37,510 nt of DNA from Deltaproteobacteria bacterium (GTDB lineage Bacteria > Desulfobacterota > Syntrophobacteria > BM002). The notes under the pieces are model-generated. The model did not search any database and was not told the DNA's origin. It saw only the letters and a program-made list of their open reading frames with translations. The stretch is taken from contig JAFDGZ010000036.1 of assembly GCA_019309045.1 (NCBI GenBank), forward strand, positions 1-37,510, read 5' to 3'. The translations under genes were made by a program, and so were the position numbers. Positions 4,590-30,065 of this stretch are shown one piece after another. Position 1 is the first letter of the stretch; each line of letters begins with the position of its first letter.

Positions 4590-5192
4590 CTATTTCAGGA
4601 GAGCGAAGATTCTGACCGCGGTGTATTCTGCCACGTCCGCCAGGGCGTCGACTGGCAAATGGCTGCAGGCGTCGGCAGCAAAGAGGCAGGTGACTGCAGC
4701 AGGAAACTCGTCATCCGGAAGATAGAATATGTAATAGAGCGGTATGCGGGGCAGGGGATAAAGGGTGAAAGAGAAATCGCCGGACGGGGCGTCCGGGTTC
4801 AGGCGACCAGAAAAACGCTTTGCCAGTTGTTCTTTGTGCTGCTCTATGGCAATCACGTGAGGGACAAGAATCTGCTGAGCTCTCGCCTCGAAGGCTCCCT
4901 GGTAGGGAGCGCTTCCGGGGAGCTCCTTGAATGACTGCAGGGGATGGAGTTGGGGCAATTTCTGCTCCACATGACGGGCGTAGAGTGCAATGAGGATGCC
5001 CTCCGGCCCCAGCAATTCTTCGCCATCGAGAAGAATTTTATCCGGACAGAGCAGGCAGGTGCTGGCAAAGGCCGAAAATTTCAGGCAGCCTTCGCGGCGT
5101 ATTGCCGGCAGGGCTTTTTCGAGCTGACGCTCACCGCGTCTCCAGGCATGCTCCAGGTGCTCCTTCAGAATTTGCAGGTATTGTTTGCTCAT
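4590..5192 (-). CDS. DUF3786 domain-containing protein
   Basis: A 200-residue protein matching the DUF3786 family along its length. The diagnostic stretches are FKELPGSAPYQGAF near residues 89-102, and the later run containing FTLYPLPRIPLYYIFY, then LPDDEFPA and a LFAADACSHLPVDAL segment. Two cysteines (CLLC, residues 46-49) sit where family members often carry metal-ligand-like cysteines. The family is common in anaerobic deltaproteobacteria and archaea, and its biochemical role is not established. The ATG at 5192 is preceded by GGAGG. A possible promoter lies about 70 to 100 bases upstream. The preceding permease gene is on the same strand but 204 bases away, so they are probably separate units. 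Confidence 0.85.
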   Translation of the reverse strand: MSKQYLQILKEHLEHAWRRGERQLEKALPAIRREGCLKFSAFASTCLLCPDKILLDGEELLGPEGILIALYARHVEQKLPQLHPLQSFKELPGSAPYQGAFEARAQQILVPHVIAIEQHKEQLAKRFSGRLNPDAPSGDFSFTLYPLPRIPLYYIFYLPDDEFPAAVTCLFAADACSHLPVDALADVAEYTAVRIFALLK

Positions 5193-5396: not shown

Positions 5397-5894
5397 TCAT
5401 TGCAACCAGCGAAAGACGAATTTCGACATATAGCCAATAATTACCGGGAAGACCAGGCTGCAGATCAACCTGGTGGCGGTGAGGTGCAGCCCCAGGATAG
5501 GGATTTCAAAGACAATGACCCGGTTTATGCTGAGCAGGGCCCAGGCAGACAGGTAGGCGATCAGCGGCCCGATGCTCACTCCTGCTTTGAACATGGCGGC
5601 CACGATGGGGAACTGGACCAGAGGACCCCCGGGGGTTAGCAGTCCCAGGAAGGTGCCGACAAAGAGTCCCTTGAGGCCGCTTTCTGCGCCCACCCAGCGG
5701 ACGAGCACCTCTTTCGGCAGGAGCACCTCCATGAGTCCCGCCACAAAAAAGGCGAGAATGAGAATCGGCAGGATGCGAACAAGAAGAGCGCCGCCCGAGC
5801 GCAGGGCCTGGATCGGCAGCCCAGGATCTCGCTGAAAGGCTATAGCCCCGAGAATGGCAGCGAGTACTGCCATGATAATGAATGCTCCGTTCAT
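5397..5894 (-). CDS. Half-length DUF318/ArsP-like permease
   Basis: A 165-residue integral membrane protein. The start at the ATG at 5894 is preferred because GGAG lies 8 bases upstream; an in-frame ATG at 5918 lacks this. Four or five hydrophobic segments are visible: residues 3-19, about 35-55, 75-100 with the Gly/Pro-rich GLLTPGGPLVQFP, 105-125 and 140-160. The region around LPKEVLVRWVGAESGLKGLFVGTFLG is typical of the UPF0718/DUF318 permease family, which includes the organoarsenical exporter ArsP. Full-length members are about 300 residues with two such halves, so this is a one-repeat version. Such short members often occur as pairs of genes, but no partner is adjacent here. The substrate is unknown. 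Confidence 0.8.
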   Translation of the reverse strand: MNGAFIIMAVLAAILGAIAFQRDPGLPIQALRSGGALLVRILPILILAFFVAGLMEVLLPKEVLVRWVGAESGLKGLFVGTFLGLLTPGGPLVQFPIVAAMFKAGVSIGPLIAYLSAWALLSINRVIVFEIPILGLHLTATRLICSLVFPVIIGYMSKFVFRWLQ

Positions 5895-6081
5895 CTGAAT
5901 TCTCCGCTTTTCTCTCATTGTCTACTCACAGACAGGCCGGCAAAAGGAGCCGGGTATGAACCTGGCCTGCTCTTTTTGCTTCGGGTCGCCAGGTCCCCCT
6001 GGCCAGTCTTGCTAGGTTGCTTGGCAAAAGATGCAAAAAATATTACTCTGAGGTCAACAAGCCGCAGGGAGCATAATTCAT

Positions 6082-7090: not shown

Positions 7091-7273
7091 TCAAAACCTG
7101 TCACAACGAACGTCAGCGAGCTCCCTCTCCAGGGCTTCATCCACATCATCCTTGAACTTTCTCAGGGGATATACTGCACCGCATGACCTGCAGCGCCAGA
7201 AGACCCGCTGTCAGGTCTTGCCGATTGCGAGTGGTTTCTTGCATTTCAGGCACAAAGGAGTAGGTTTTTCCAT
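7091..7273 (-). CDS. Dual-CXXC small zinc-ribbon protein with in-frame TGA (probable selenoprotein)
   Basis: Started at the ATG at 7273-7271, the frame reads 20 codons, meets TGA at 7213-7211, then continues open for 39 more codons to a true TGA at 7093-7091. The 60-residue product would have Cys8-x2-Cys11, the TGA at position 21, Cys28-x2-Cys31 and a final VRCDRF. The two CxxC pairs form a zinc ribbon only if the TGA is read through. I recall a family called dual CXXC motif small (seleno)protein with Cys or selenocysteine at such an internal site, and this gene fits it. A perfect hairpin follows the TGA (separate entry). The alternative is a pseudogene with one nonsense change. There is no good Shine-Dalgarno before the ATG. 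Confidence 0.65.
7191..7213 (-). promoter_or_regulatory. Hairpin directly after the in-frame TGA (SECIS-like candidate)
   Basis: On the minus strand the TGA (7213-7211) is followed at once by CAGCG (7210-7206), a 10-base loop GGTCTTCTGG and CGCTG (7195-7191), a perfect 5-base-pair stem. Bacterial selenocysteine insertion elements lie immediately downstream of UGA and show a GGUCU-type apical loop in the E. coli formate dehydrogenase example; GGTCT is present in this loop. The stem is closer to the UGA than in E. coli, so the match is suggestive only. Confidence 0.45.
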
Positions 7274-7393: not shown

Positions 7394-7885
7394 TCAGCCA
7401 ATTGCCCGAAACAACAGCCTGCAGCAATCTGCACCTTCACATATCTGTTCTTGCAGCTCGAATTCAATCTGATCGCTGAACTCGGCGGCCCAGACCATGT
7501 ATTCGGTGGTGCATATCCGAGTACCAACGCGCCCGGAGAGGGCTTCTCTGCCCGAGTTGATCATGATCTCATGCCAAGGACAGTGTCTCAGGGTTATCAT
7601 CAGGAGATTGCCATCGTCACTGTAATCGCTGTCAAAGGCGAATCCATCGTAAGCAAGCTTGGTTGTAAGACACTTTGCCAGCGATTCCATACCGCCGCTC
7701 AAACCGGTCATGGACTTGAGCTTGCGAGCCTGAATCTTGGGCATCACTTTCCAGACTTCGTTATCAATGTCCAGGGCAGTGTCAAATCCGTATATCTCTT
7801 CAACCTTCATGAACCAGAGACCATCCACGGCCGTATAGCACCTTTTGAAGTATTCAACAACCTGTTTTTCGGTCAAATCAAGCAT
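7394..7885 (-). CDS. DUF6125 family protein
   Basis: A 163-residue protein starting MLDLTEKQVVEYF at the ATG at 7885, with GGAGGTG placed 5 bases upstream. I recognise the DUF6125 pattern: the AVDGLWFMKVEEIYGFDTAL opening, then EVWKVMPKIQARKLKSM near residues 40-56, a central RHCPWHEIM segment and a C-terminal Cys-rich end (CEGADCC). The conserved HCPWH and the paired cysteines suggest a metal or cofactor site, and the fold recalls L-2-amino-thiazoline-4-carboxylic acid hydrolase-like proteins, but no function is proven. It overlaps the GNAT gene upstream by 8 bases, so the two are translationally coupled. Confidence 0.8.
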   Translation of the reverse strand: MLDLTEKQVVEYFKRCYTAVDGLWFMKVEEIYGFDTALDIDNEVWKVMPKIQARKLKSMTGLSGGMESLAKCLTTKLAYDGFAFDSDYSDDGNLLMITLRHCPWHEIMINSGREALSGRVGTRICTTEYMVWAAEFSDQIEFELQEQICEGADCCRLLFRAIG

Positions 7886-8390
7886 TTGCACCTCCACTGG
7901 AAGCAAACCACTTCTCTTCCGCAAGGACCACAGAGGTCTCTATTTGTCGATCTGGGATTGACCAGTATTTTTTCAAGAGGCGGCTTTTCTCTGCGGGTGC
8001 TACCAATCGAAATCCATGTTTCTCATAGAAGCGAATCGCCCAGGTAGCCTCGGTCCAGGTGCCGATCAGGATAGGGCGTGAAGTCAAGGTGCGAAGGTGT
8101 GAAAGGAGTCTTCCGCCAATGCCACGCTTCTGATCAGCGGTTCGCACATAGGCGTGCCGAATCAGAGTGACATCCTGGATGTGTTGGATGCCCATCACTC
8201 CAATGAGCGCACCATCTTCTTCGTAACCCCAGAAGACAATGCCGGAGCCGATCTCTTCTGCGAGCTGTTGCCTGGACATATAAGGCTCATGCCAGCAGTC
8301 TAAAGGGATTGCTCCTTTGTACGCCTGGGCGGCCTCATTTATGATCCGGTAAATTGCCTCGAAATCATTTTCCTCGCATGGCCGAATCAA
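7878..8390 (-). CDS. GNAT-family N-acetyltransferase
   Basis: A 170-residue acetyltransferase. The GNAT fold shows as IRPCEENDFEAIYRIINEAA at the N-terminus, the central strand GALIGVMGIQ (residues about 60-69), the acetyl-CoA loop with QKRGIGGRLLSHL (the R/Q-x-x-G-x-G/A motif, near residues 86-98) and FYEKHGFRLV (about 124-133). The substrate cannot be told from sequence. Its stop overlaps the DUF6125 start by 8 bases on the same strand, an arrangement that implies coupled translation and perhaps a joint role. Confidence 0.9.
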   Translation of the reverse strand: MIRPCEENDFEAIYRIINEAAQAYKGAIPLDCWHEPYMSRQQLAEEIGSGIVFWGYEEDGALIGVMGIQHIQDVTLIRHAYVRTADQKRGIGGRLLSHLRTLTSRPILIGTWTEATWAIRFYEKHGFRLVAPAEKSRLLKKYWSIPDRQIETSVVLAEEKWFASSGGANA

Positions 8391-12871: not shown

Positions 12872-13202
12872 GGGCATAGTTTATCTATGGGACAAGAGAG
12901 CCGGCCTTCTGGAAAAGACGGAGAGCGGCTATCGCTTCACCTATGATCAGGAATACCTGTCCGCACAGGATGCCCAGCCTGTAAGTCTAACTTTACCCTT
13001 GAGAAAACAGCCCTACGAAAGCGAGTCTCTGTTTCCCTTTTTCCTGGGTCTCATTCCTGAGGGTTGGCTGCTGGATATTACCAGCCGCACTCTGAAAATA
13101 GACCCAGAGAATTCATTTGAGATACTTCTGGCAACCGGGGCTGACTGTATAGGAGCAGTTACCGTGCTCCCAGAAGAAAATGGAGACGTTCGTGAAGAAT
13201 AA
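12852..13202 (+). CDS. hipS: HipS-like antitoxin (stand-alone HipA N-terminal domain)
   Basis: A 116-residue protein equal to the N-terminal subdomain of HipA only: GIVYLWDKRAGLLEKTESGYRFTY, the LTLPLRKQPYESESLFPFF segment, LGLIPEGWLLD and the closing GADCIGAVTVLPEE. Full HipA proteins carry this domain fused to the kinase. Here it ends with its own TAA at 13202 while the kinase is a separate overlapping gene. This is the arrangement of the E. coli O127 HipBST system, in which HipS neutralises the HipT kinase. It overlaps hipB upstream and hipT downstream. Confidence 0.85.
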   Translation: MKSKSNKGIVYLWDKRAGLLEKTESGYRFTYDQEYLSAQDAQPVSLTLPLRKQPYESESLFPFFLGLIPEGWLLDITSRTLKIDPENSFEILLATGADCIGAVTVLPEENGDVREE

Positions 13203-14124
13203 GTGCCTTTCTTGTCATATTTTGGCGGTTGACTCGGAACTTGGCAGGGGGTACCATCGCAGGTGTTCGAGGCAGCTTTTTGGCACGCCACACCCCCCTG
13301 AAGTACCGTTCGGGACCGCGGATGTGACCCGAGAGGCTCAAAAAATGGTCGGGAAGATGTCTATTTCCGGGGTCCAGCCAAAACTCTCCGTAATCCACGA
13401 GCGGAGGAAACACCAGATAATTGTGGTGGAAAGGGGAGGGCTCTACATCCTCAAACCGCCAGTCGGGCGGTTTGAGTCTATTCCTGAAAATGAGAACCTT
13501 TGCATGAACATTGCCGCCACTTATGGAATCGAGGTTCCACCGCATGGCCTTGTCCCGCTCATGGACGGCAGGCTTGCCTATCTGGTGCGAAGATTTGACC
13601 GCTCGGCAGACGGCTCGAAACTGCAACAGGAGGATTTTCAGCAGCTCCTGCAAAAAGAAGACAAGTATGATGGATCCTACGAGAGTATTGCGAACTTTAT
13701 CAAGGAACACTCTTCCGTTCCAGGACTTGACCTTATAAGGCTTTTTGAAAGAGCACTCCTGTTTTTTGTGTTGGGCAATGGGGATGCACACCTGAAGAAT
13801 TTTTCTCTTCTTCGCAGCGAGGAGATTGGTTATCAGCTCTCACCGGCCTATGATATCATCAACTCCAGGCTGTTATTGCCCGAGGAGCGAGAAGAGGTGT
13901 GTCTCAGCCTCCAAGGCAAGAAGAATCGCCTTTCCGGAAGAGATTTTTTCGGCCTGGCAGAGCACTTTGGTCTTACGAGGAAACAGGCTGAGAATTCTCT
14001 AGACCATCTGCACGATCTCAAATCGACAATTGAAACAATGATCAAAGGTAGCTTCCTGAAAACAAATCTTCGGAGGGGCTTTCTTGAAATCTTCCGTGAG
14101 AGAATGGCCAGGCTCTTTACCTGA
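13192..14124 (+). CDS. hipT: HipT-like Ser/Thr kinase toxin
   Basis: A kinase of about 310 residues. The GTG at 13192 has TGGAG 6 bases upstream and is preferred; an in-frame ATG at 13180 adds four residues. It begins with a possible zinc-binding element, CLSCH followed by HRRC about 12 residues later. The HipT-type Gly-rich loop reads SISGVQPKL, with the paired serines known to be autophosphorylated in HipT. The nucleotide-binding Lys is in YILKPP, the catalytic segment is GNGDAHLKNFSL (Asp and Asn) and the metal-binding Asp is in PAYDIINS. The E. coli homologue phosphorylates tryptophanyl-tRNA synthetase; the target here is unknown. It lacks the HipA N-terminal domain, which the preceding gene supplies. 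Confidence 0.88.
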   Translation: MKNKCLSCHILAVDSELGRGYHRRCSRQLFGTPHPPEVPFGTADVTREAQKMVGKMSISGVQPKLSVIHERRKHQIIVVERGGLYILKPPVGRFESIPENENLCMNIAATYGIEVPPHGLVPLMDGRLAYLVRRFDRSADGSKLQQEDFQQLLQKEDKYDGSYESIANFIKEHSSVPGLDLIRLFERALLFFVLGNGDAHLKNFSLLRSEEIGYQLSPAYDIINSRLLLPEEREEVCLSLQGKKNRLSGRDFFGLAEHFGLTRKQAENSLDHLHDLKSTIETMIKGSFLKTNLRRGFLEIFRERMARLFT

Positions 14125-20081: not shown

Positions 20082-21746
20082 ATGGAACAAAATGAACATT
20101 GGGTCCTCCTTCATGGCGATGTGGACACTATCAAAGATTTCGTTTTCGAGACATCTTCCCTGCCTCAGATTCGCGGTGGCAGCCAGTTGTTGCTGGAATG
20201 CGAAGACGAGGTCACGAAAAAAGTCGAAACGCTCGGCGGCGAGAAAATCTACTGTTCAGGGGGCAGCTTCCTCTTCGAGATCCCTGCAGATAAAGTTGGG
20301 GCAGCGAAGGGAGATATTGAAAACATCTACCTGGAGCGCACGCTGGCAGCAACGGTAACGATAGCCCACGAAAGTGGCTCATCGCTCCCTGATCCCCAAA
20401 ACACTCCCCAAGAGGGATGGGCCAAACGGCTCTGGGATGCCCATCAACAGGTTCAACAGAGCGGCGATTTTGCCCGACGGGTGGCCTTTCTCAGCGCCCA
20501 CGTCCGCAAGGCGAAGAACCAAAAGCGCAGCTCCCCCTTCTTCGAGGCCTTTCCCTTCGGCAAGCGGTGTGATGCCTGCGGCAAACGCGTCACCCTGGAA
20601 GAGATTACCCGTCGGGAGCCGGAGGAGCAAGAACGGGAGGAGTTGGTAGCCCTGTGTGCGGTTTGTCTGCAACGGCACAGGACAGGGGTGCGGAGTGGTA
20701 AGCAGCATGTTCGGGGCCGATTTAATGAGCGTTTTTCTCATCAATACGCCCCGACAGCCAATCATCCTCCGGATCTCGATCACCTGGTGAGAAGCGCCCG
20801 CCGCAGTTATGTGGCCTTCCTCTACGCCGATGGGAATGACATCGGTCGGTTGTTGCAACAGGTCCGCAGCAAAGAGGAATTCGCGGCCCTCTCCAGGGCG
20901 CTGGAAGAGGGAACCCAACAAGCTTTGTTTAAGGCCTTGCAGCAGGCGTGCGGTCAAGAACTACAAAAGAACAATGGGTACTGGCCTTTTGAAATCGTCA
21001 ATGTCGGCGGCGACGATGTGACGCTCTTGATTCAGGCAGGCTACGCCTGGGAAGTTGCGGTGAAATTCCTGGAAGAATTCGAGGCACGGATTAAGGTCCT
21101 TGTGATGGACACACTGGGCTACTGGCTGGAAGGTTGGCCGGAGAAGATCACGGCCTCCTGTGGCATCGCGATTGCTGATGTCAAACACCCGGTTCGCTAC
21201 CTGGAGTATCTGGCCAGCGATCTGCTCAAGAGGGCGAAGCGGGAGGCCAAAGCGAGTGCAGAACGTCCCCAGAGTGCAGTAACATTTCTCTGGCTGCCTA
21301 ACCCGGTCGCCGCAGAGAAGGCAGAGCCTCTGATGAGTTACTATCAGCGTGGGGATAATAGGCTCACAGCCAGGCCGTATACCCTTGAACGGGCCGAAAA
21401 ACTCACACATCTGGTTCAAGAAGCATCCCAATGGCCCAGGGTGCGGGCGTTGCGCCACCGGTGGGGTGAAGCCTTGGACAGGGGGATGTTGGTCTCACTG
21501 AACACGGTCTATTACGATATTGCACGTAGGGGAGATGAGGATCGTGTCCAGTTAACCCGTTTCTTGTCGGAAGTGGGCAGATCGGCGGAGCAACAGGGAT
21601 ATTGGACAACTCCGCCGGGCCCTCTCTGGCAGCTTTTTGAGAAAGACAACAAAAAACCCGGCTTCAGAACCGCCTTGCTCGACGTGTTGGAACTGGCCGA
21701 ATTGCGTGCGATGCGGCCGGATGTGCCAGAAGAGGAGGAACGCTGA
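20082..21746 (+). CDS. cas10: Cas10 of a type III-D CRISPR-Cas system
   Basis: A 554-residue Cas10. The first Palm-like domain begins at once (WVLLHGDVDTIKDFVF, then SLPQIRGGSQLLL), so there is no N-terminal HD DNase domain. A zinc ribbon follows, with CDAC at 163-166 and CAVC at 192-195. The second Palm domain has YADGNDIGRLL near 248-258 and an intact GGDD at 309-312, so cyclic oligoadenylate synthesis from ATP is expected on target RNA binding. The helical C-terminal domain ends at 554. It opens the III-D operon; AGGAGG lies 7 bases before the ATG. The next gene overlaps it by one base (TGATG). Confidence 0.93.
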   Translation: MEQNEHWVLLHGDVDTIKDFVFETSSLPQIRGGSQLLLECEDEVTKKVETLGGEKIYCSGGSFLFEIPADKVGAAKGDIENIYLERTLAATVTIAHESGSSLPDPQNTPQEGWAKRLWDAHQQVQQSGDFARRVAFLSAHVRKAKNQKRSSPFFEAFPFGKRCDACGKRVTLEEITRREPEEQEREELVALCAVCLQRHRTGVRSGKQHVRGRFNERFSHQYAPTANHPPDLDHLVRSARRSYVAFLYADGNDIGRLLQQVRSKEEFAALSRALEEGTQQALFKALQQACGQELQKNNGYWPFEIVNVGGDDVTLLIQAGYAWEVAVKFLEEFEARIKVLVMDTLGYWLEGWPEKITASCGIAIADVKHPVRYLEYLASDLLKRAKREAKASAERPQSAVTFLWLPNPVAAEKAEPLMSYYQRGDNRLTARPYTLERAEKLTHLVQEASQWPRVRALRHRWGEALDRGMLVSLNTVYYDIARRGDEDRVQLTRFLSEVGRSAEQQGYWTTPPGPLWQLFEKDNKKPGFRTALLDVLELAELRAMRPDVPEEEER

Positions 21747-22408
21747 TGCAGCACCTGCGCTTGGAATTGCATTTCATTTTGGATACCGCCTTTCATACCA
21801 CTGGAAATCGCTGGCGCTGGGGGGCGGACAAGGCGCTGGCGATGGCGCCTGACGACACCTATGTCATCCCCGCCACCACCCTAAAAGGGACCTTGCGGGA
21901 CCGGGCCGAGATGCTCCTGCGCACCTGGGGACAAGACGTGTGCAGCGGGCCGACACCGAACACGATGTGCTCCGAACCGGACCGGCTTTGTCCCGTCTGC
22001 CAGGTTTTCGGGAATCCGCGTTTCCCTTCACCACTTTGCTTTCAGGATGGACGATTCGAGCCAGATGTAGTGGCCCAGATCCGCAGTGGGATTTCCATCA
22101 GTCGCCAGCGGCACGCTGCCCTGCCAAGACGCCTGTTCTTTGTCGAAACCACTTCACCAGGCCCGCTGGAAGCCATAGCAATCTGCGAAGGATACTTCCC
22201 GAACCGGGAGAGCGCCCTGCTAGGCTGTGCGCTGGTCATCTTGGCCGCGCAATGGATGCCCGCCGTCGGTGGGGGGCGCACGCGAGGCCTGGGATGGATA
22301 GAGAAAATAAAGGTTGAGGTTACTCTGAACAGTGAGCCGGTTCCTCAACAACAATTGGAAACGCTCTGGCGTGAATGGTCAGGAGGGCACAATGTGGCTG
22401 AAGATTAA
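21746..22408 (+). CDS. cas7: Cas7-like RAMP protein, Csm3 type (III-D)
   Basis: A 220-residue RAMP subunit of the effector backbone. The RRM-like start (LRLELHFILDTAFHTTG), YVIPATTLKGTLRDRAE, LCPVCQVFGNPRF and the C-terminal GGGRTRGLGWIEKI are family hallmarks. Asp28 in WGADKAL is positioned like the target-RNA-cleaving Asp of Csm3. It overlaps cas10 by one base and csx10 by 17 bases. Confidence 0.88.
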   Translation: MQHLRLELHFILDTAFHTTGNRWRWGADKALAMAPDDTYVIPATTLKGTLRDRAEMLLRTWGQDVCSGPTPNTMCSEPDRLCPVCQVFGNPRFPSPLCFQDGRFEPDVVAQIRSGISISRQRHAALPRRLFFVETTSPGPLEAIAICEGYFPNRESALLGCALVILAAQWMPAVGGGRTRGLGWIEKIKVEVTLNSEPVPQQQLETLWREWSGGHNVAED

Positions 22409-23600
22409 ACCGGAAGTGCCTTTGATTCTGGGCGACGTACGGGCCGGTTCTCAGTTCTTGAGTTCGATCCATTACATCCCAGGCCGGGTGCTCCGAGGCG
22501 CTTGGGCGGAATGGCTTCAGGCTCAAGATCAGCAGAACATCCTGCCCACTGTCGAACGCGTGCGTATCGGGAACTTCTTCCCTACGACCGAGTGGCGTCC
22601 GATACGCTACACGTTTCCACTGCCACTTAGCGCTCTGACGTGCAAACGGAAGAGCGGCTTTCTTAGAGAGCCGCATAAAGAGAACCCGGGCCACGGTGTC
22701 GTGGACACACTGTTACCTCAACTGGCCTATTCGCTTCTGGAAGAGGCGGGTGCTCGCTTCTCCGTCCCCTTCGCTTTGACCTGTATCGAATGTGGCGACC
22801 GGATGGAACCGGCGGGCGGCTTCTACACCCTCTACCGAGATGGCTCCACTGAGCGCTACGCTCAGATACAACTGCGCTACCACGCACAGACCAAAGTAGG
22901 CCTCAGCCGGCACCGTCGCGCCGCCGTAGAGCAGATGTTGTACACGGCGAGCGCATTGAGCCCGAGGGTGAAATCTCTGCAAGAGGAAGATGAGACGACT
23001 GCACTGATCTTCATGGGGCGTGTGCACGGCGAGAGAGAGGATGTGGAAGCCCTGATAGACGCCGTCAACCACGTCGCCATCGGTGCGCTTCACACCCGGG
23101 GCTATGGCCGCGTGAGAGCGGAAGAAGCCGATGTGGAAGGTTTCCCGGGCATTAAAGAGCGGGTGACGCGGTTCAAGGAGACGCTGGCTCATTGCTGGCA
23201 AGACCTGAAGCGATTGGCTGTCAATGCTGAAGATCTGCCTGAGGGGCCAGAAGGCATCTACTTCTCTGTAGACCTGCTGAGTCCCGGCGTATTCCGGCAA
23301 GGCGGCGTGCCCGGCCTGGTGCCCACGCTGCACATCAACGGCCAGGCGCTGGAGCCGGTGTTCTGGATGACGCGGCCCGACTTGGCCAGCGGCTGGTCGG
23401 CGGGCTGGGGGCTGCCTAAACCCACAAACCTGGCCGCCCGGATGGGCAGCACCTACGTATACCGCTGGGAAGGAGACCCGAAACCCCTTATCACCGCTTT
23501 AGAGCATCTGGAGCGCCGGGGCATCGGTGAACGATGTGACGAGGGCTTTGGCGAGTGTTTGATTTGCCATCCATTTCATCAGGAGGTAGAGGAAAAATGA
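22392..23600 (+). CDS. csx10: Csx10-type Cas5-like RAMP protein (III-D)
   Basis: A 402-residue protein from the ATG at 22392, which has AGGAGG 5 bases upstream. It starts MWLKIKPEVPLILGDVRAGS, then SIHYIPGRVLRGAWAEWL, the standard Csx10 opening. A CIECG pair is seen near residue 137, a second RAMP unit covers the last third, and the Gly-rich end reads ERCDEGFGECLIC. Csx10 is the signature subunit of type III-D and serves as the Cas5-like 5'-handle binder. Its stop overlaps the next ATG (AATGA). Confidence 0.88.
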   Translation: MWLKIKPEVPLILGDVRAGSQFLSSIHYIPGRVLRGAWAEWLQAQDQQNILPTVERVRIGNFFPTTEWRPIRYTFPLPLSALTCKRKSGFLREPHKENPGHGVVDTLLPQLAYSLLEEAGARFSVPFALTCIECGDRMEPAGGFYTLYRDGSTERYAQIQLRYHAQTKVGLSRHRRAAVEQMLYTASALSPRVKSLQEEDETTALIFMGRVHGEREDVEALIDAVNHVAIGALHTRGYGRVRAEEADVEGFPGIKERVTRFKETLAHCWQDLKRLAVNAEDLPEGPEGIYFSVDLLSPGVFRQGGVPGLVPTLHINGQALEPVFWMTRPDLASGWSAGWGLPKPTNLAARMGSTYVYRWEGDPKPLITALEHLERRGIGERCDEGFGECLICHPFHQEVEEK

Positions 23601-24016
23601 GAAAGCTCAAGGCAACGATTCGCCAACGGATCGCGGCGCAGGATGACCAATGGGTCCAAGCGGCAGAATCTTTGGCCCAAAGTTTGTGGAACAGCCTGGA
23701 GAAAAGCGAGAGAAAAGATGGCAAAGTCGGTCAGCTTCGCAATATCCTGGATATTGCCGAATCCAGCGACTCCTGGGAAGCCCTGAAGCTGTTCATACGC
23801 TATCAAGCGGCTCGCGGACAACTAGGAAAAAAGAAGGGACGGCAGTGGGCAGAGGGTACTATCCAGCAATTGGAGGCTCTGCACAACAAGGCCCAAGCAA
23901 TAGCGGACAGCGAGCCCGGCGTGGATCCCAAAGTCGTCCACATAGAAATCGTCTCCCGCGTGCTCGGCTACGCCGTTCGCTGGCACGTGTGGGACGTGAA
24001 AGGAGCCGGACAATGA
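23597..24016 (+). CDS. cas11: Small subunit, Csm2-like Cas11 (III-D)
   Basis: A 139-residue all-helical protein. The central GKVGQLRNILDIAESSD, then SWEALKLFIRYQAARGQL, closely follows the Csm2 pattern of a QLR helix followed by a long helix ending near an Arg/Gly. It should form the inner filament of the III-D complex. GGAGG lies about 10 bases before the ATG; both ends overlap the neighbouring genes by four bases. Confidence 0.8.
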   Translation: MRKLKATIRQRIAAQDDQWVQAAESLAQSLWNSLEKSERKDGKVGQLRNILDIAESSDSWEALKLFIRYQAARGQLGKKKGRQWAEGTIQQLEALHNKAQAIADSEPGVDPKVVHIEIVSRVLGYAVRWHVWDVKGAGQ

Positions 24017-24909
24017 GCGTCTTCGACCGTTTTCAGAACCAGACCCGAATCCAGGCCATCTTAGAGATGCACACGGCCTTGTCGGTGGGAAGCCGTGGCT
24101 CGCTGGAGCCCACGGGAACCGACCTGCCGGTGATGAAAGGCCCAGACGGCGTGCCCTTTATCCCGGGATCTTCCATCAAGGGCGCTTTCCGAGCGCTGGC
24201 CGAGCGCATTCTGCGCACCTTTACAGACCAGTTTGACATTGAAAGGTGTGAAAACGGAGACCCTGTTATCTGGGCCTGTGATCCGCTAGACAAGCCTTGT
24301 GTCCCGGAAAGAAGTCGGGATGACCGAGTAGGGAAAGAGGAACTGTGGCGCGAAGCGGTAGAAAGGGAGCGCCGTGGAGAGGGTTCCGCTGATGCCATTT
24401 TCGCTCAAGAGCTATGGAATCACAGTTGCACTGCCTGCCGGCTCTTCGGCTCGCCCTGGTTCGCTGGACGGGTGGCCTTCAAGGACGCTTTTCTGCTGAA
24501 TGGCGATGAACTGCCGGTGGTCACCCAAATCCGCGATGGTGTGGGCATTGACCGGGACCTGGGTGCCGCCCGCAGCGGAGTCAAGTACGACTTTGAAGTG
24601 GTAGTCCCTGGGGCGCGTTTCGGTTTGGAAATCCTGATGGAGAACGTAGACGACTGGGAACTGGGATTCCTACTCACCATGCTGCGTCTGTGGGAGGACG
24701 GCAACCTGGCGCTCGGCGGGAAGGTCACTCGCGGCCCCGGATGGGGCAAACTAGTGGACACCCAACTGCGACGGCTGGACCAGAACACCTTGCTGGACTA
24801 CTTGCTTCAGGGACAGCAGGAACCTGCGGAGCCGACCGTTTTCATTACGGCATTTCAAGAACACATCGCCAACGCCCTGAAGCAGAACGGGAGGGAGAAC
24901 GATGCATAG
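24013..24909 (+). CDS. cas7: Cas7-like RAMP protein, Csm3 type with likely catalytic Asp (III-D)
   Basis: A 298-residue Cas7 subunit from the ATG at 24013, which overlaps the cas11 stop (ATGA). It shows ALSVGSRGSLEPTGTDLPVM (with Asp37 equivalent to the Csm3 target-RNA-cleaving Asp), PFIPGSSIKGAFRALAE, a CTACRLFGS zinc/thumb motif and the end ALGGKVTRGPGWGKL. An acidic insert (residues about 90-125) makes it longer than ordinary Csm3. It overlaps the next gene by 8 bases. Confidence 0.9.
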   Translation: MSVFDRFQNQTRIQAILEMHTALSVGSRGSLEPTGTDLPVMKGPDGVPFIPGSSIKGAFRALAERILRTFTDQFDIERCENGDPVIWACDPLDKPCVPERSRDDRVGKEELWREAVERERRGEGSADAIFAQELWNHSCTACRLFGSPWFAGRVAFKDAFLLNGDELPVVTQIRDGVGIDRDLGAARSGVKYDFEVVVPGARFGLEILMENVDDWELGFLLTMLRLWEDGNLALGGKVTRGPGWGKLVDTQLRRLDQNTLLDYLLQGQQEPAEPTVFITAFQEHIANALKQNGRENDA

Positions 24910-25858
24910 GACCCGCTACAATGCCTTGCGTTTAGCATTGGCCATCAGCCCCCGTGGCCCCTTGCTGGTCAAGGCGGGCGGTACTTCTGCTAACCCCACC
25001 TTGCCGGATATGCAGTTCGTGCGTACCTACCATCCTAAGAAGGGCGAGACGGTTTACATTCCCGGCTCATCCATCAAGGGCGTGGTGCGTGGCTTCGTGG
25101 AGAAGGCCCTGCGCACCGTGGATCCACACCCTGATCAACCAGGACCAAAGCATCACGATGATTGGCGGTGGGCCTGTGCGACTTTTGAAGCCAAGGAAGA
25201 GGAACGCAAGGACAAAATAAAATGGAATTGCCCAAGATTTCTGGATGAAGTGAGAGAAAAGATGGGGCGTGAGCTGCTTTCCTGGGAAATCTATGCCAAT
25301 TCCTGCGGTGCCTGCCGCATTTTCGGTCATACCCGTCTACGCGGTCGGGCGGCCTTTACCGACCTGATCCCAACCGACGAAGTAGCCACCGAAATCCGGT
25401 ACGGCGTGGCCATCTCCCGCCTGACCCACGCCGTGGCCCACGGCCCCTTTGAGATGGAAGCCGCGGTGACCGGAACCTTTAAAGGTCACCTGGTGCTGGA
25501 GAACTATGAAATCTGGCAGTTGGGACTGCTGGCTTCGGCCCTGGAGGCGATGAATCAAGGGTTGGTGAAGGTGGGCTTCGGCAAGAACCGGGGCTTCGGT
25601 GAGGTGGAGGTGACGGTAACAGAGGCGCGAATGGATGAAGTCGCTACCGCGGCGGACATGTCGGTGCTGCGGGGGTTGGGTGCCTTTGGCAACGGAAGCC
25701 AGCAGCAGGATTATGGCCTTTCCCCACCGGAGATGATGGAGGGATTGCCCGATCCGAAAAAGCGCGCCGATCTGGGCATCTACAGCCGTCGCATTTACGA
25801 CACCAAGGGCTGGCAGGTCATCGCACGAAAGGCGATCGCCGCGTTGAGCACAGGATGA
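24902..25858 (+). CDS. cas7: Cas7-like RAMP protein (III-D)
   Basis: A 318-residue Cas7 subunit. It has LPDMQFVRTYHP with Asp36 in the catalytic position, VYIPGSSIKGVVRGFVEK, SCGACRIFGHTRLRG and GFGKNRGFGEVEV near residue 228. A C-terminal extension of about 75 residues with no recognised domain follows. This is the third of four RAMP backbone genes in the operon. It ends at 25858, 11 bases before csx19. Confidence 0.88.
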   Translation: MHRTRYNALRLALAISPRGPLLVKAGGTSANPTLPDMQFVRTYHPKKGETVYIPGSSIKGVVRGFVEKALRTVDPHPDQPGPKHHDDWRWACATFEAKEEERKDKIKWNCPRFLDEVREKMGRELLSWEIYANSCGACRIFGHTRLRGRAAFTDLIPTDEVATEIRYGVAISRLTHAVAHGPFEMEAAVTGTFKGHLVLENYEIWQLGLLASALEAMNQGLVKVGFGKNRGFGEVEVTVTEARMDEVATAADMSVLRGLGAFGNGSQQQDYGLSPPEMMEGLPDPKKRADLGIYSRRIYDTKGWQVIARKAIAALSTG

Positions 25859-25869
25859 GGGAGGACCCG

Positions 25870-26313
25870 ATGGCAAGACAACAGGTGTATGCCTACTCCC
25901 TGGAAGGCTCCGTCGAAGACTTGAAGCAGTGGACGGAGGAATACCTTGGAACCTCAATGTGGCACTGGGTGGCCGATCCCGCGAGGCTGGAGGTGGGCGA
26001 AGGTCTGCCGATAGACTGGAAAGACCAGGGCTCTGCCTTCAACGAATGGGGTGAATTGCGCTGGTGGTGCCACAAGGATACCTACGAAGCCCTGCTGGTC
26101 ACCGAACAGACCGCAACAGGCTTGACCCCGCTCCCCGGCTTGTGGCAGGCGGAAATCCAGTCCGTCTTCTTGCAGAACCTGCGAGAACAGCGTGTGAACC
26201 CGAATTTCGTGGCCTATCCGGGGGGAAATGCTGCCGGGAAGATAGAAGTGCGGGTATGTTATCGAGACGGCACAGCGACCCTGGTCAGCCTGCGCAAGTT
26301 CTTGCCAGAATGA
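25870..26313 (+). CDS. csx19: Csx19-like protein (III-D)
   Basis: A 147-residue protein from the ATG at 25870, with GGGAGG 6 bases upstream. The WGELRWWCHKDTYEALLVTE stretch (residues about 57-76) and the position between cas7 genes of a III-D operon match Csx19 (TIGR03984). The other visible features are Trp-rich (WHWV, WKDQ, LWQAEI), suggesting a compact beta-rich fold. Its role is poorly defined; in cyanobacterial III-D complexes Csx19 is an accessory subunit. Confidence 0.7.
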   Translation: MARQQVYAYSLEGSVEDLKQWTEEYLGTSMWHWVADPARLEVGEGLPIDWKDQGSAFNEWGELRWWCHKDTYEALLVTEQTATGLTPLPGLWQAEIQSVFLQNLREQRVNPNFVAYPGGNAAGKIEVRVCYRDGTATLVSLRKFLPE

Positions 26314-26326
26314 GGAGAAATGAGCA

Positions 26327-27310
26327 ATGGCCCGACGTAGAAGACCACAACCGACAGAGCCCAAGCCGTTTTTTTCGATTTCGATTCAAGGGAAGCCGAG
26401 ACCAAAAAAAGAAGAACCTACTCCTCACGACCGCTTTAGCGAATGGAGCGGACGAATAGAGTTGGAGATCGAGGTGCTCTCCGATTACCTGTACGTAGGC
26501 AGCGGGAATTTCGACCTGTTTCCTCTGCAAAGACAGGACCAGGCTCGCTACACCATTGCCCGGCGCAACGGCGAACTGGTAATTCCTGGTACCGGCATCA
26601 AAGGCGCGGTGAGAAGCGTGGTGGAGGCCATCTCCAATTCATGCGTGCGGCTGTCAGCGCGAAGAGAAAGGGGGCCGGGGTCTCATCGCCCTTGCAGCGA
26701 CCCAAGCCGGTTGTGCCCGGCGTGTCGCCTGTTCGGCACCACTGGCTACCGGGGCCGGGCGCACTTCTCCGACGCTGTGCCTCTGGGAAATGTGGAGACA
26801 ACTACCATCAAGATTGCCGATCTGTGGCCCCCGCGCATTACCAGGGAGCGCAAGTTTTACCAGACCAAGGCTTTCCAGCCGCAGGACATGCGCCCTCAGA
26901 AAAACTACCGTTTCCTGGAGGTAGTACCCAAGGGAGCATACTTCAAAACCACGCTGTTTTTCGAGAACGCCACAACCGCCGAGATGGGTGTGTTAGTACG
27001 CGCTTTGGGACTGGCTTTGCACCCGGAAGAAGAGGGCAGCGAGGTTTACGCCTTCCCCATCAAAATCGGCGGCGCCAAGCCCCGCTGCCTGGGCAGTGTG
27101 CGTTTTCATCCGAAGAGGATTCAGGTGCTGTCCGCAACCGGCGACAGCCTGTTCCAGTCTCTGCTCACCGGCGGATATTCTCAGGGCATCAAGGCTCAGT
27201 TGCTGGAATGGCTGGCTAACACGTCATTGCTCGATCAAGAGGCCTGGACGGAGTTTCGGGAGAAAGCAAAGCCACAAACGGACGCGCCGTGTCCCAAGGA
27301 GATCTACTGA
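26327..27310 (+). CDS. cas7: Cas7-like RAMP protein, divergent (III-D)
   Basis: A 327-residue RAMP protein. A basic N-terminal tail (about 40 residues, ARRRRPQP) precedes the fold. Family marks are VGSGNFDLFP, LVIPGTGIKGAVRSVVE and LCPACRLFGTTGYRG. The usual Asp before the conserved Gly-Lys-Gly helix is not clear, so RNA cleavage by this subunit is doubtful. The C-terminal 100 residues resemble those of Cas7 units that cap the complex. Its TGA overlaps the next ATG. Confidence 0.85.
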   Translation: MARRRRPQPTEPKPFFSISIQGKPRPKKEEPTPHDRFSEWSGRIELEIEVLSDYLYVGSGNFDLFPLQRQDQARYTIARRNGELVIPGTGIKGAVRSVVEAISNSCVRLSARRERGPGSHRPCSDPSRLCPACRLFGTTGYRGRAHFSDAVPLGNVETTTIKIADLWPPRITRERKFYQTKAFQPQDMRPQKNYRFLEVVPKGAYFKTTLFFENATTAEMGVLVRALGLALHPEEEGSEVYAFPIKIGGAKPRCLGSVRFHPKRIQVLSATGDSLFQSLLTGGYSQGIKAQLLEWLANTSLLDQEAWTEFREKAKPQTDAPCPKEIY

Positions 27311-27630
27311 TGGTCAGTGTGGATGAGCAGATTCAACTGGCGGAACAGATTGCCAAACAGTTGCCAGAGGTCACCCGCAATGAGTGGGTGCGCTGGATGC
27401 AGGTCGCCAACCAGCGTGGTCTGGATTACGCGATTCGCTATGCAGAACGGCTCTCCGCGGATCCCACGATGCGCCCGGCTATCCAGCGAGCCAATCGGTT
27501 GATTGCACGAGCCGTTCGGTCCCACCAGCAAGCCTTAAAGCGTTTAGACCGAAAGAGCCAGGAAGCCGTCCTGGGATATGTCGCGTGGTTGTTGAAGATC
27601 GGCGCTCTACGTGGATCTTTACGTGCCTGA
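27310..27630 (+). CDS. Uncharacterised helical protein inside the III-D operon
   Basis: A 106-residue protein predicted to be almost wholly alpha-helical (EQIQLAEQIAKQLPEVTRN, RGLDYAIRYAERLSADPTMR, QQALKRLDRKSQEAVLGYV). I do not recognise a family. It overlaps the preceding cas7 stop by one base (TGATG) and lies 12 bases before the PIN gene, so it is co-translated with both. Two ideas fit: an extra small (Cas11-like) subunit, or the antitoxin partner of the PIN protein. Basic residues are plentiful (RRAIQRAN-like stretches), which is compatible with nucleic-acid binding. Confidence 0.75.
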   Translation: MVSVDEQIQLAEQIAKQLPEVTRNEWVRWMQVANQRGLDYAIRYAERLSADPTMRPAIQRANRLIARAVRSHQQALKRLDRKSQEAVLGYVAWLLKIGALRGSLRA

Positions 27631-27642
27631 TGGAGTGTAGCC

Positions 27643-28077
27643 ATGCGATTCGTGTTCGACACCAGCGTGCTCGTGGACTACTTGCGAGACGACGAAATGG
27701 CTGCTAATGCCCTGTTTGTGGCTACGGAAAAGGGGAACGTGTTCATCAGCCTGATCAGCTTTATGGAGCTATGGCTCTCGCACAACAGGAGCAACGCGGA
27801 GATCCAAGAGGAAATAGCGGCATTACAAGAACTGTGTAAGAGATTGGAAATCAGAATCGTCCCATGCACACACCGCTCGCAACAACAGGCTCTGGCTTTA
27901 CTGGAGCGCAATCGTTCTCCGTTGGGAAGGAATGCCCTGCCGGATAGCCTGATCATAGCCACAGGAATAACTCGGCGGGCCTACTTAGTGACAAGAGATG
28001 GGCATTGGTTTGATGTTGCTGGGAGTACACGGGAACTTCGAGTGCTATCGCCAGAAGAACTGGTGGAGGAGCTCTGA
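27643..28077 (+). CDS. PIN-domain nuclease (VapC-like) inside the III-D operon
   Basis: A 144-residue PIN protein with the acidic set of the family: Asp6 in FVFDTSVLVDYL, Glu42 in SFMELW, Asp101 in LPDSLIIATG and Asp119 in VTRDGHWF. The length is that of VapC toxins, which cleave tRNA or rRNA. It follows the 106-residue gene by 12 bases and is followed 2 bases later by the NE0113-family gene, so it belongs to the CRISPR transcript. It may be an addiction toxin tied to the locus or an effector of the type III response; sequence cannot decide. Confidence 0.87.
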   Translation: MRFVFDTSVLVDYLRDDEMAANALFVATEKGNVFISLISFMELWLSHNRSNAEIQEEIAALQELCKRLEIRIVPCTHRSQQQALALLERNRSPLGRNALPDSLIIATGITRRAYLVTRDGHWFDVAGSTRELRVLSPEELVEEL

Positions 28078-28079
28078 CA

Positions 28080-29090
28080 ATGGCAAGAAAACTCCTCATC
28101 GCCACCCTGGGCACCGCACCCGCCGTCATCACTGAAGCCATTGACCTGCTGACCGAGCAAAACGTCCGGCCGGATGGGGTGCAGTTGCTCACCACAATGG
28201 ATTCAGACGTTCAAGAAAGCTGCAACCTGTTGCTTGAGCACCTACCTGCTCACGATGGCATCGCCTGGGTCGACCCGGTTCCTATTGCTGCCTACGGGGA
28301 TATGGATACCCCAGATGCCGCAGTCGAGTTTATGCAGGTGGCCTGCCGCCTTTTGAAAACGTATCGGGATGCCGGTTACCGCCTTTTCGTGAGCATTGCC
28401 GGTGGCAGGAAGGCCATGTCGGCCCTGCTGGCCCTGGGCGTCCAGTTTTACGGCGCAGAGCGGTTGTTCCACGTGTGGGTTCCGCCGTGGATTGAAGCGG
28501 AGGGCGAGATCACCAATCTACGGAAGTGGAAGGACTTCCCGGACAAGATCAACGAAGCATTGCATCCATCGTTGGATGTAGAGGAAAGCGATCGCCCCCG
28601 CATTGTGGATTTGCCCTTCATTGGCCTGTTCCCACTGTTGAACGACATCCGGGCAGCTCTACAGGGGGAAGCAGCACCCCCAAGGGAAATCAAGCAACTG
28701 CTGATTGCAAACGCACTCTTGACAGGTCAGGGGGAGCCAACTCCGATGGGCCAAACGGTTGCTGTCATCCTGGAGGGTGTAGAAGGCCTGCCGCCGGCCC
28801 GTCAGGAAGAGTGCAAGGTGTCCATCGCCAAACATCACTTTTCCAACAGGTTGGAACGCTTTGCCTGGGAACTGTGTGGACGTTTCCCTTACGTCACCAA
28901 GATTCGCAGCGGTGAATGGCGGAGCGGTGAGGGCAAGGTGAAAGTAGAGTCTCCCAACATCATCCGCGTCTTTGCACCGCTGGGAACCGATTTCCCCTTG
29001 CAACTTATCCTAACCACCACGGCCACCAGCGAGGGGCAACTGGAGGCGGCAAGGCGGGACGTTGAGCGGTATCTCCGGAGGAGAAGATAA
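28080..29090 (+). CDS. CARF protein of the NE0113 (TIGR02584) family
   Basis: A 336-residue protein. The N-terminal CARF-like domain carries LLIATLGTAPAVITEAI (motif I at residues 5-21) and VSIAGGRKAMSALLALG (motif II, 104-120), both typical of the NE0113 family of CRISPR-associated proteins. These bind cyclic oligoadenylate. The C-terminal half (about 190-336) is not recognised by me and has no R-x4-6-H HEPN motif. A ring nuclease or signal-dependent effector role is inferred. It is coupled to the PIN gene and the CARF-HTH gene. Confidence 0.82.
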   Translation: MARKLLIATLGTAPAVITEAIDLLTEQNVRPDGVQLLTTMDSDVQESCNLLLEHLPAHDGIAWVDPVPIAAYGDMDTPDAAVEFMQVACRLLKTYRDAGYRLFVSIAGGRKAMSALLALGVQFYGAERLFHVWVPPWIEAEGEITNLRKWKDFPDKINEALHPSLDVEESDRPRIVDLPFIGLFPLLNDIRAALQGEAAPPREIKQLLIANALLTGQGEPTPMGQTVAVILEGVEGLPPARQEECKVSIAKHHFSNRLERFAWELCGRFPYVTKIRSGEWRSGEGKVKVESPNIIRVFAPLGTDFPLQLILTTTATSEGQLEAARRDVERYLRRRR

Positions 29091-29093
29091 GAA

Positions 29094-30065
29094 ATGGGCG
29101 TCTACCACCTTATGGGCCTCGGCCGCTCCGCGGGCACCGTCATCGGGCCATTGACCTATTTGGCTCACCGTTACGAGCGCTGGAATGCCGATGACCGGCG
29201 CTTCTTCGCCCGCTCCGGTGAGGCCCGTCAGCGCCAGGCCGGCGTAAAGGTCGGCGATGTGCAGGCACTGGTCCTTTTCACCACGCCGGAAGTGCTGAGT
29301 GGCCAGGTCGCGGCCATTGGCTATGTGGACAACCAACGGGGCGAAATCGCAAAGGGCCCCGCAAAAGACGGCGGGCGAATGAAAGAAATCCTGCGGGACC
29401 TGCTCTGCCGCGAATGGCCGGCCATCAGTGGTGGGCGCACCGTCGGCACCATCTTCTGGTGCGAAGTGGACCGCCGGGACATCCGCACCACCTACGAGAG
29501 AGTTATCCAGGTCGTGGCTGCGCTGGCTGGAGTCGGTGGTCAGGGAAAGGAGATGTGGGCCAACCTGACCGGCGGCAACAACGTCATCAACGCCGCCCTG
29601 GAACTGGCCGCCATACTCTCAGGCGACGTGGCCCGGATTTACTACGTCCAGGCCGAGAACCCCGAGGCCGAAAAATGCGTGCGCTACACCGCCGAGAACG
29701 GCTATTGGGTGGAGTTGCCGGTGATGCCGCTGGCATTGGGCCGACTGAGCCAGGCCATCATTAATCTGCTGGCAAATCAGGGTGCGCTCGACCTGAAGAA
29801 CCTGTACAGCCTCCTGAAGAACGACTACTGGGACCTGAGCCGGGGGCTCACATCAGAGGAGGTACTGCGGGAGGAATACCTCTCTCCGATCTGGAAACAG
29901 GGCCTCATTGCTGAAACCCCCGATGGCTATGTCGTCGGCCCCCAGTGGGAGGTGATCCAGCCTTATCAGGAGGTTCTGAAAAAGGCTCTCGAAAACCCTG
30001 TGCCTATCGAGCAATTGGCAAAACAGCAACCTTGGCTCGAGAAAGAAAAGCTTCCTCTGACCTAA
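29094..30065 (+). CDS. CARF-HTH protein (possible cOA-responsive regulator)
   Basis: A 323-residue protein. Residues 1-205 look like a CARF fold: YHLMGLGRSAG at the start, and EMWANLTGGNNVINAALELAA at 153-173, the second ligand motif. Residues 218-290 resemble a winged helix (LSQAIINLLANQGALDLKNL, then a wing near ETPDGYVVGPQWE). No nuclease motif is seen. Csa3-type CARF-HTH regulators switch CRISPR transcription in response to cyclic oligoadenylates; a similar role is likely but unproven. GGAG lies about 8 bases before the ATG; the gap to the preceding gene is 3 bases. Confidence 0.7.
   Translation: MGVYHLMGLGRSAGTVIGPLTYLAHRYERWNADDRRFFARSGEARQRQAGVKVGDVQALVLFTTPEVLSGQVAAIGYVDNQRGEIAKGPAKDGGRMKEILRDLLCREWPAISGGRTVGTIFWCEVDRRDIRTTYERVIQVVAALAGVGGQGKEMWANLTGGNNVINAALELAAILSGDVARIYYVQAENPEAEKCVRYTAENGYWVELPVMPLALGRLSQAIINLLANQGALDLKNLYSLLKNDYWDLSRGLTSEEVLREEYLSPIWKQGLIAETPDGYVVGPQWEVIQPYQEVLKKALENPVPIEQLAKQQPWLEKEKLPLT

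Follow-up and report, generated by a model that had tools for sequence, protein, structure and literature searches.

The window, by which we mean the whole 37,510-nucleotide stretch that was analysed, carries on its minus strand a small open reading frame that starts with an ATG at 7273–7271, runs for 60 codons and ends with a terminal TGA at 7093–7091 (Table 1). This frame fits exactly the coordinates of an earlier note on the same DNA, which had described a TGA in frame as codon 21, flanked by two CxxC pairs, with 39 further codons beyond it; the description was confirmed on the minus strand, a strand absent from that note and set by the present analysis. A plus-strand reading of 7091–7273 was dropped, since the family match described below came from the minus strand. 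With the internal TGA read as selenocysteine (Sec, U), the product is MEKPTPLCLKCKKPLAIGKTUQRVFWRCRSCGAVYPLRKFKDDVDEALERELADVRCDRF.

Table 1. Coordinates of the dual-CXXC gene, its internal features and the gene upstream of it (positions in the window)
Feature	Position	Strand	Remarks
Coding sequence of the dual-CXXC small selenoprotein, 60 residues, U21	7091..7273	-	Terminal TGA (7091-7093) included
In-frame TGA, codon 21, read as Sec	7211..7213	-	TGA 68, Cys 17 among 85 members read
First CxxC, CLKC, residues 8-11	7241..7252	-	Invariant in the alignment
Second CxxC, CRSC, residues 28-31	7181..7192	-	Invariant in the alignment; codons contribute to the SECIS stem
Predicted bacterial SECIS	7176..7196	-	8-bp stem GCGCUGCA/UGCGGUGC, apical loop GGUCA, 22 nt after UGA
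Hairpin of the earlier note	7191..7210	-	CAGCG-GGTCTTCTGG-CGCTG, 10-nt loop, immediately 3' of TGA
DUF6125 / ATC hydrolase-like gene, upstream on the same strand	7394..7924	-	Linkage not conserved

Beyond the DUF6125 gene, genes for a GNAT acetyltransferase, a 3-hydroxyacyl-CoA dehydrogenase and a thiolase follow further upstream on the same strand, while an M28 peptidase gene lies downstream in convergent orientation. The gene has different neighbours in a sister genome. Elsewhere in the window, at 20082–30062 on the plus strand, we identified a type III-D-like CRISPR-Cas effector locus with Cas10 (20082–21746), Csx10/Cas5 (from 22314), several Csm3/Cas7-like genes and two CARF/Csx1-like genes at 28014 and 29094. 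Reading of the sequence at 13180–14124 (plus strand) indicated a HipA-like protein, for which PADLOC gave weak PDC-M03A matches only. The minus strand also encodes a DUF3786 protein (4590–5192) and an ArsP_1 permease (5397–5918), the latter of 173 aa against a profile of 294 positions and possibly one half of a split permease.

When Cys was substituted for U, the 60-residue protein matched NCBIfam NF041197 with 65.4 bits (curated cut-off, 40 bits), its residues 8–60 covering positions 1–53, that is, the whole 53-position profile. The match still reached 56.3 bits in the six-frame genome search, at which the TGA was kept as a stop. The family of dual-CXXC small (seleno)proteins that had been mentioned in the earlier note is thus matched over its cut-off. 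No Pfam domain scored above its cut-off for the 60-residue protein, Zn_ribbon_RPB9 being below it. A 2026 review (PMC13188914) lists NF041197 (CxxC_Se_CxxC, hypothetical protein OS_HP3) as a known selenoprotein family with the motif RxU and cites for it work on the Olavius algarvensis symbiont from 2007, and OS_HP3 was also named in an earlier review (PMC9312934). A weak second match in this genome (C115, 21 bits), with one TGA and one TAG inside, looks spurious.

The window protein shares with NF041197 the full-length match, both CxxC pairs, the Sec/Cys site and the C-terminal CDR-hydrophobic end, and the columns C8, C11, C/U21, C28 and C31 were invariant in the alignment. It differs from most members in having Lys two residues before Sec and Gln directly after it, where most have Arg at both places. 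The RxU motif is therefore KTU in this protein, and as the same place is Arg in 47 and Lys in 12 of 68 Sec-containing members, RxU is not strictly defining for the family.

NF041197 matches were detected in 81 of 297 genomes of the phylum and in 46 of 56 genomes of the class, and each of the 48 matches in the class had exactly one in-frame stop, a TGA. All full-length matches from the phylum and class searches had either TGA or no stop. The earlier note had proposed the residue of homologues at position 21 as a check, and Cys or TGA was what we found there: among 85 members, read with a pattern that required TGA or Cys although the underlying searches read through every stop, the site was TGA in 68 and Cys in 17, and never TAA, TAG, Trp or another residue. 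These counts refer to related sequences spanning many genera and families, not to independent events. The terminal stops of the 68 TGA members were mixed (27 TGA, 24 TAG and 17 TAA), and in nine members from the family that the window belongs to, the internal codon was always TGA, whereas the terminal codon was TGA, TAA or TAG. Since TGA occupies the same column in 68 loci and occurs once in each of the 48 class matches, its arrangement is far beyond chance.

No gene of the neighbourhood was common to the whole family that could serve as a clue to function. As for subgroups, one with Sec lies behind gcvH- and fabD-like genes and others lie near truA or def-fmt, these names coming partly from reading the sequences. 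A Cys-only subgroup (L018-L024, L028-L030), mostly ending in IIYD, lies directly behind pyrE (orotate phosphoribosyltransferase, also named by sequence reading). A search for related loci with a relative as the query returned one locus, in a Deltaproteobacteria MAG, and the plasmid search for the gene gave no match. Many genomes of the phylum carry a diverged form, mostly as a second copy, with the motif G-x-U-x-x-A-x-V, the TGA at the same site and no CDR end (L088-L091, L094-L099, L101, L102 and L104-L108); it was not found in this genome. Of the diverged form, the three loci whose scanned sequence had Cys at the site (L088, L089 and L099) scored above the NF041197 cut-off, so the family may consist of two subfamilies.

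According to the published model, a bacterial SECIS has an apical loop of 3–9 nt with a G within the first two loop positions, an upper stem of 4–16 bp, a distance of 16–37 nt from the UGA to the loop and a minimum free energy of at most −7.5 kcal/mol (PMC13188914). The 5-bp hairpin that the earlier note had pointed to does exist directly after the TGA; as a SECIS, however, it breaks the rules of the model, its loop being only 5 nt from the UGA and its energy, when folded alone, −5.7 kcal/mol. Its predicted pairing probability was about 0, as its bases are common to a stronger hairpin at 7196–7176, and it was rejected as the likely SECIS on spacing, loop length and pairing probability. The stronger hairpin, which lies just 3′ of it, is likely the SECIS: with −11.8 kcal/mol it satisfies every rule of the model, and it is part of the minimum-energy fold with a pair probability of at least 0.97 for seven of its eight pairs.

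Of the 68 Sec members, 40 had a rule-abiding hairpin of −7.5 kcal/mol or better, compared with 2 of the 17 Cys members (p 0.0007 by Fisher's test). Within the stem lie the codons for the Cys residues of the second CxxC, and a shift of these codons to TGC was seen in the Sec members alone (p 0.001). All 15 class members keep the central stem pairs; most pairs are invariant in this set, and the count of covariations was not above that of shuffles. The test for synonymous recoding was not significant for the window gene alone (z −0.88, p 0.18); across the whole set, it set Sec members (mean z −1.38) only modestly apart from Cys members (−0.96). The SECIS hairpin is thus well supported as a feature of the group and moderately supported in this one gene. 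It resembles the SECIS of Escherichia coli fdhF, whose short stem is capped by an apical loop with GGUC some 20 nt from the UGA, and differs from it in stem sequence and coding context.

The presence of sel genes in the genome, another check that had been suggested, was borne out: selA (621 bits), selB (397 bits), selD (371 bits) and a tRNA-Sec gene (74.8 bits; tRNA-SeC with anticodon tca by ARAGORN) were all detected. The selD gene (L042, G000:C39:27299-28225) has one in-frame TGA of its own, so the SelD of this genome is probably itself a selenoprotein, as known from other bacteria. From what is established for bacterial Sec insertion, SelB with Sec-tRNA would bind the GGUCA hairpin about 22 nt downstream of the UGA, and UGA 21 would then be decoded as Sec.

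A single-sequence AlphaFold2 model of the protein was of low confidence (pLDDT 72, pTM 0.52). It showed a beta hairpin with strands at residues 14–19 and 24–28, residue 21 being at the turn, between the two CxxC knuckles. With this low-confidence model as the query, Foldseek gave no match with E under 0.1; the best matches were to zinc ribbons, for the most part RPB9 of RNA polymerase II, and in several cases the rmsd was 1.1–1.5 Å over about 35 columns. A profile search against solved structures gave weak matches only, many of them to zinc-binding proteins. As modelled, the protein resembles the zinc ribbon of the RPB9 N-terminal domain in that a beta hairpin connects two CxxC knuckles, but it shows no sequence membership in that family. 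It also differs in its C-terminal helix, in the conservation of its C-terminal end and in having Sec at the turn of the hairpin, and nothing pointed to an association with a polymerase. Basic residues flank Sec in most members, with R/K two residues before it in 59 of 68 and directly after it in 60 of 68.

From these observations, the product is most likely a zinc-ribbon-like protein with a selenol beside basic residues at the hairpin turn. The two CxxC pairs would hold a metal in a small zinc ribbon, and Sec, with the basic residues alongside, would be an exposed selenolate, redox-active or substrate-binding. That zinc or iron is bound by the four Cys and that the selenolate serves in redox reactions or in binding electrophiles is a moderately likely guess.

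Sec may instead coordinate the metal that the CxxC pairs hold and not be free at the turn, which would change only this last step and leave the gene a selenoprotein gene. The presence of five invariant Cys/Sec positions inside one 24-residue stretch fits such a role, whereas the model, with its low confidence, puts residue 21 at the hairpin turn, and in zinc ribbons this turn lies away from the metal knuckles; we consider a liganded Sec unlikely. Returning to the exposed selenolate, a zinc-ribbon scaffold with a reactive selenol at its turn could work on its own in redox chemistry or in the handling of electrophiles in Desulfobacterota that use Sec, a tentative proposal that we regard as possible rather than probable. 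To our knowledge, such use of a zinc ribbon has no precedent among selenoproteins.

It is very improbable that the TGA arose by nonsense mutation in a Cys-containing family and that the gene is a pseudogene in decay. No clear Shine-Dalgarno sequence precedes the ATG of this gene, as a decaying gene might show, and most relatives have a GAGG-type site upstream of their start. Against this, TGA stands at the same codon in all relatives found in the class, which come from different genera and families, random nonsense mutations would include TAA and TAG, and protein constraint continues past the TGA. Differences 3′ of the TGA numbered 416, 235 and 650 at codon positions 1, 2 and 3, respectively, and dN in the frame after the TGA was 0.32–0.45, while dS was above 1 or saturated. 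The excess of third-position differences together with these rates speaks strongly against a decaying gene; judged from the sequence comparison, the frame beyond the TGA is under purifying selection at the protein level. A TGA read by tryptophan suppression or programmed read-through is just as improbable, since Cys, and neither Trp nor any other residue, stands in the members that lack TGA, the genome has the Sec machinery and a hairpin that follows the SECIS rules lies 3′ of the TGA.

We conclude that the 60-residue gene is genuine and that its internal TGA is, by inference, almost certainly decoded as selenocysteine. The earlier note's main reading of the TGA as Sec was supported by every named test that was run, and we hold with great confidence that the locus truly encodes a selenoprotein of the NF041197 (OS_HP3) family, with Sec at UGA 21.

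The gene is an ordinary member of an already catalogued family, and the finding is a solid correction of annotation rather than a surprise: a small gene that gene finders easily overlook was confirmed as real, and its strand, stop and SECIS were fixed. Members of OS_HP3 this small are under-annotated, as the prediction tool of one study missed one OS_HP3 gene (PMC12013277). The family is widespread in the lineage, and its clear set of Sec/Cys pairs makes it a testing ground for what Sec adds to a zinc-ribbon-like protein.
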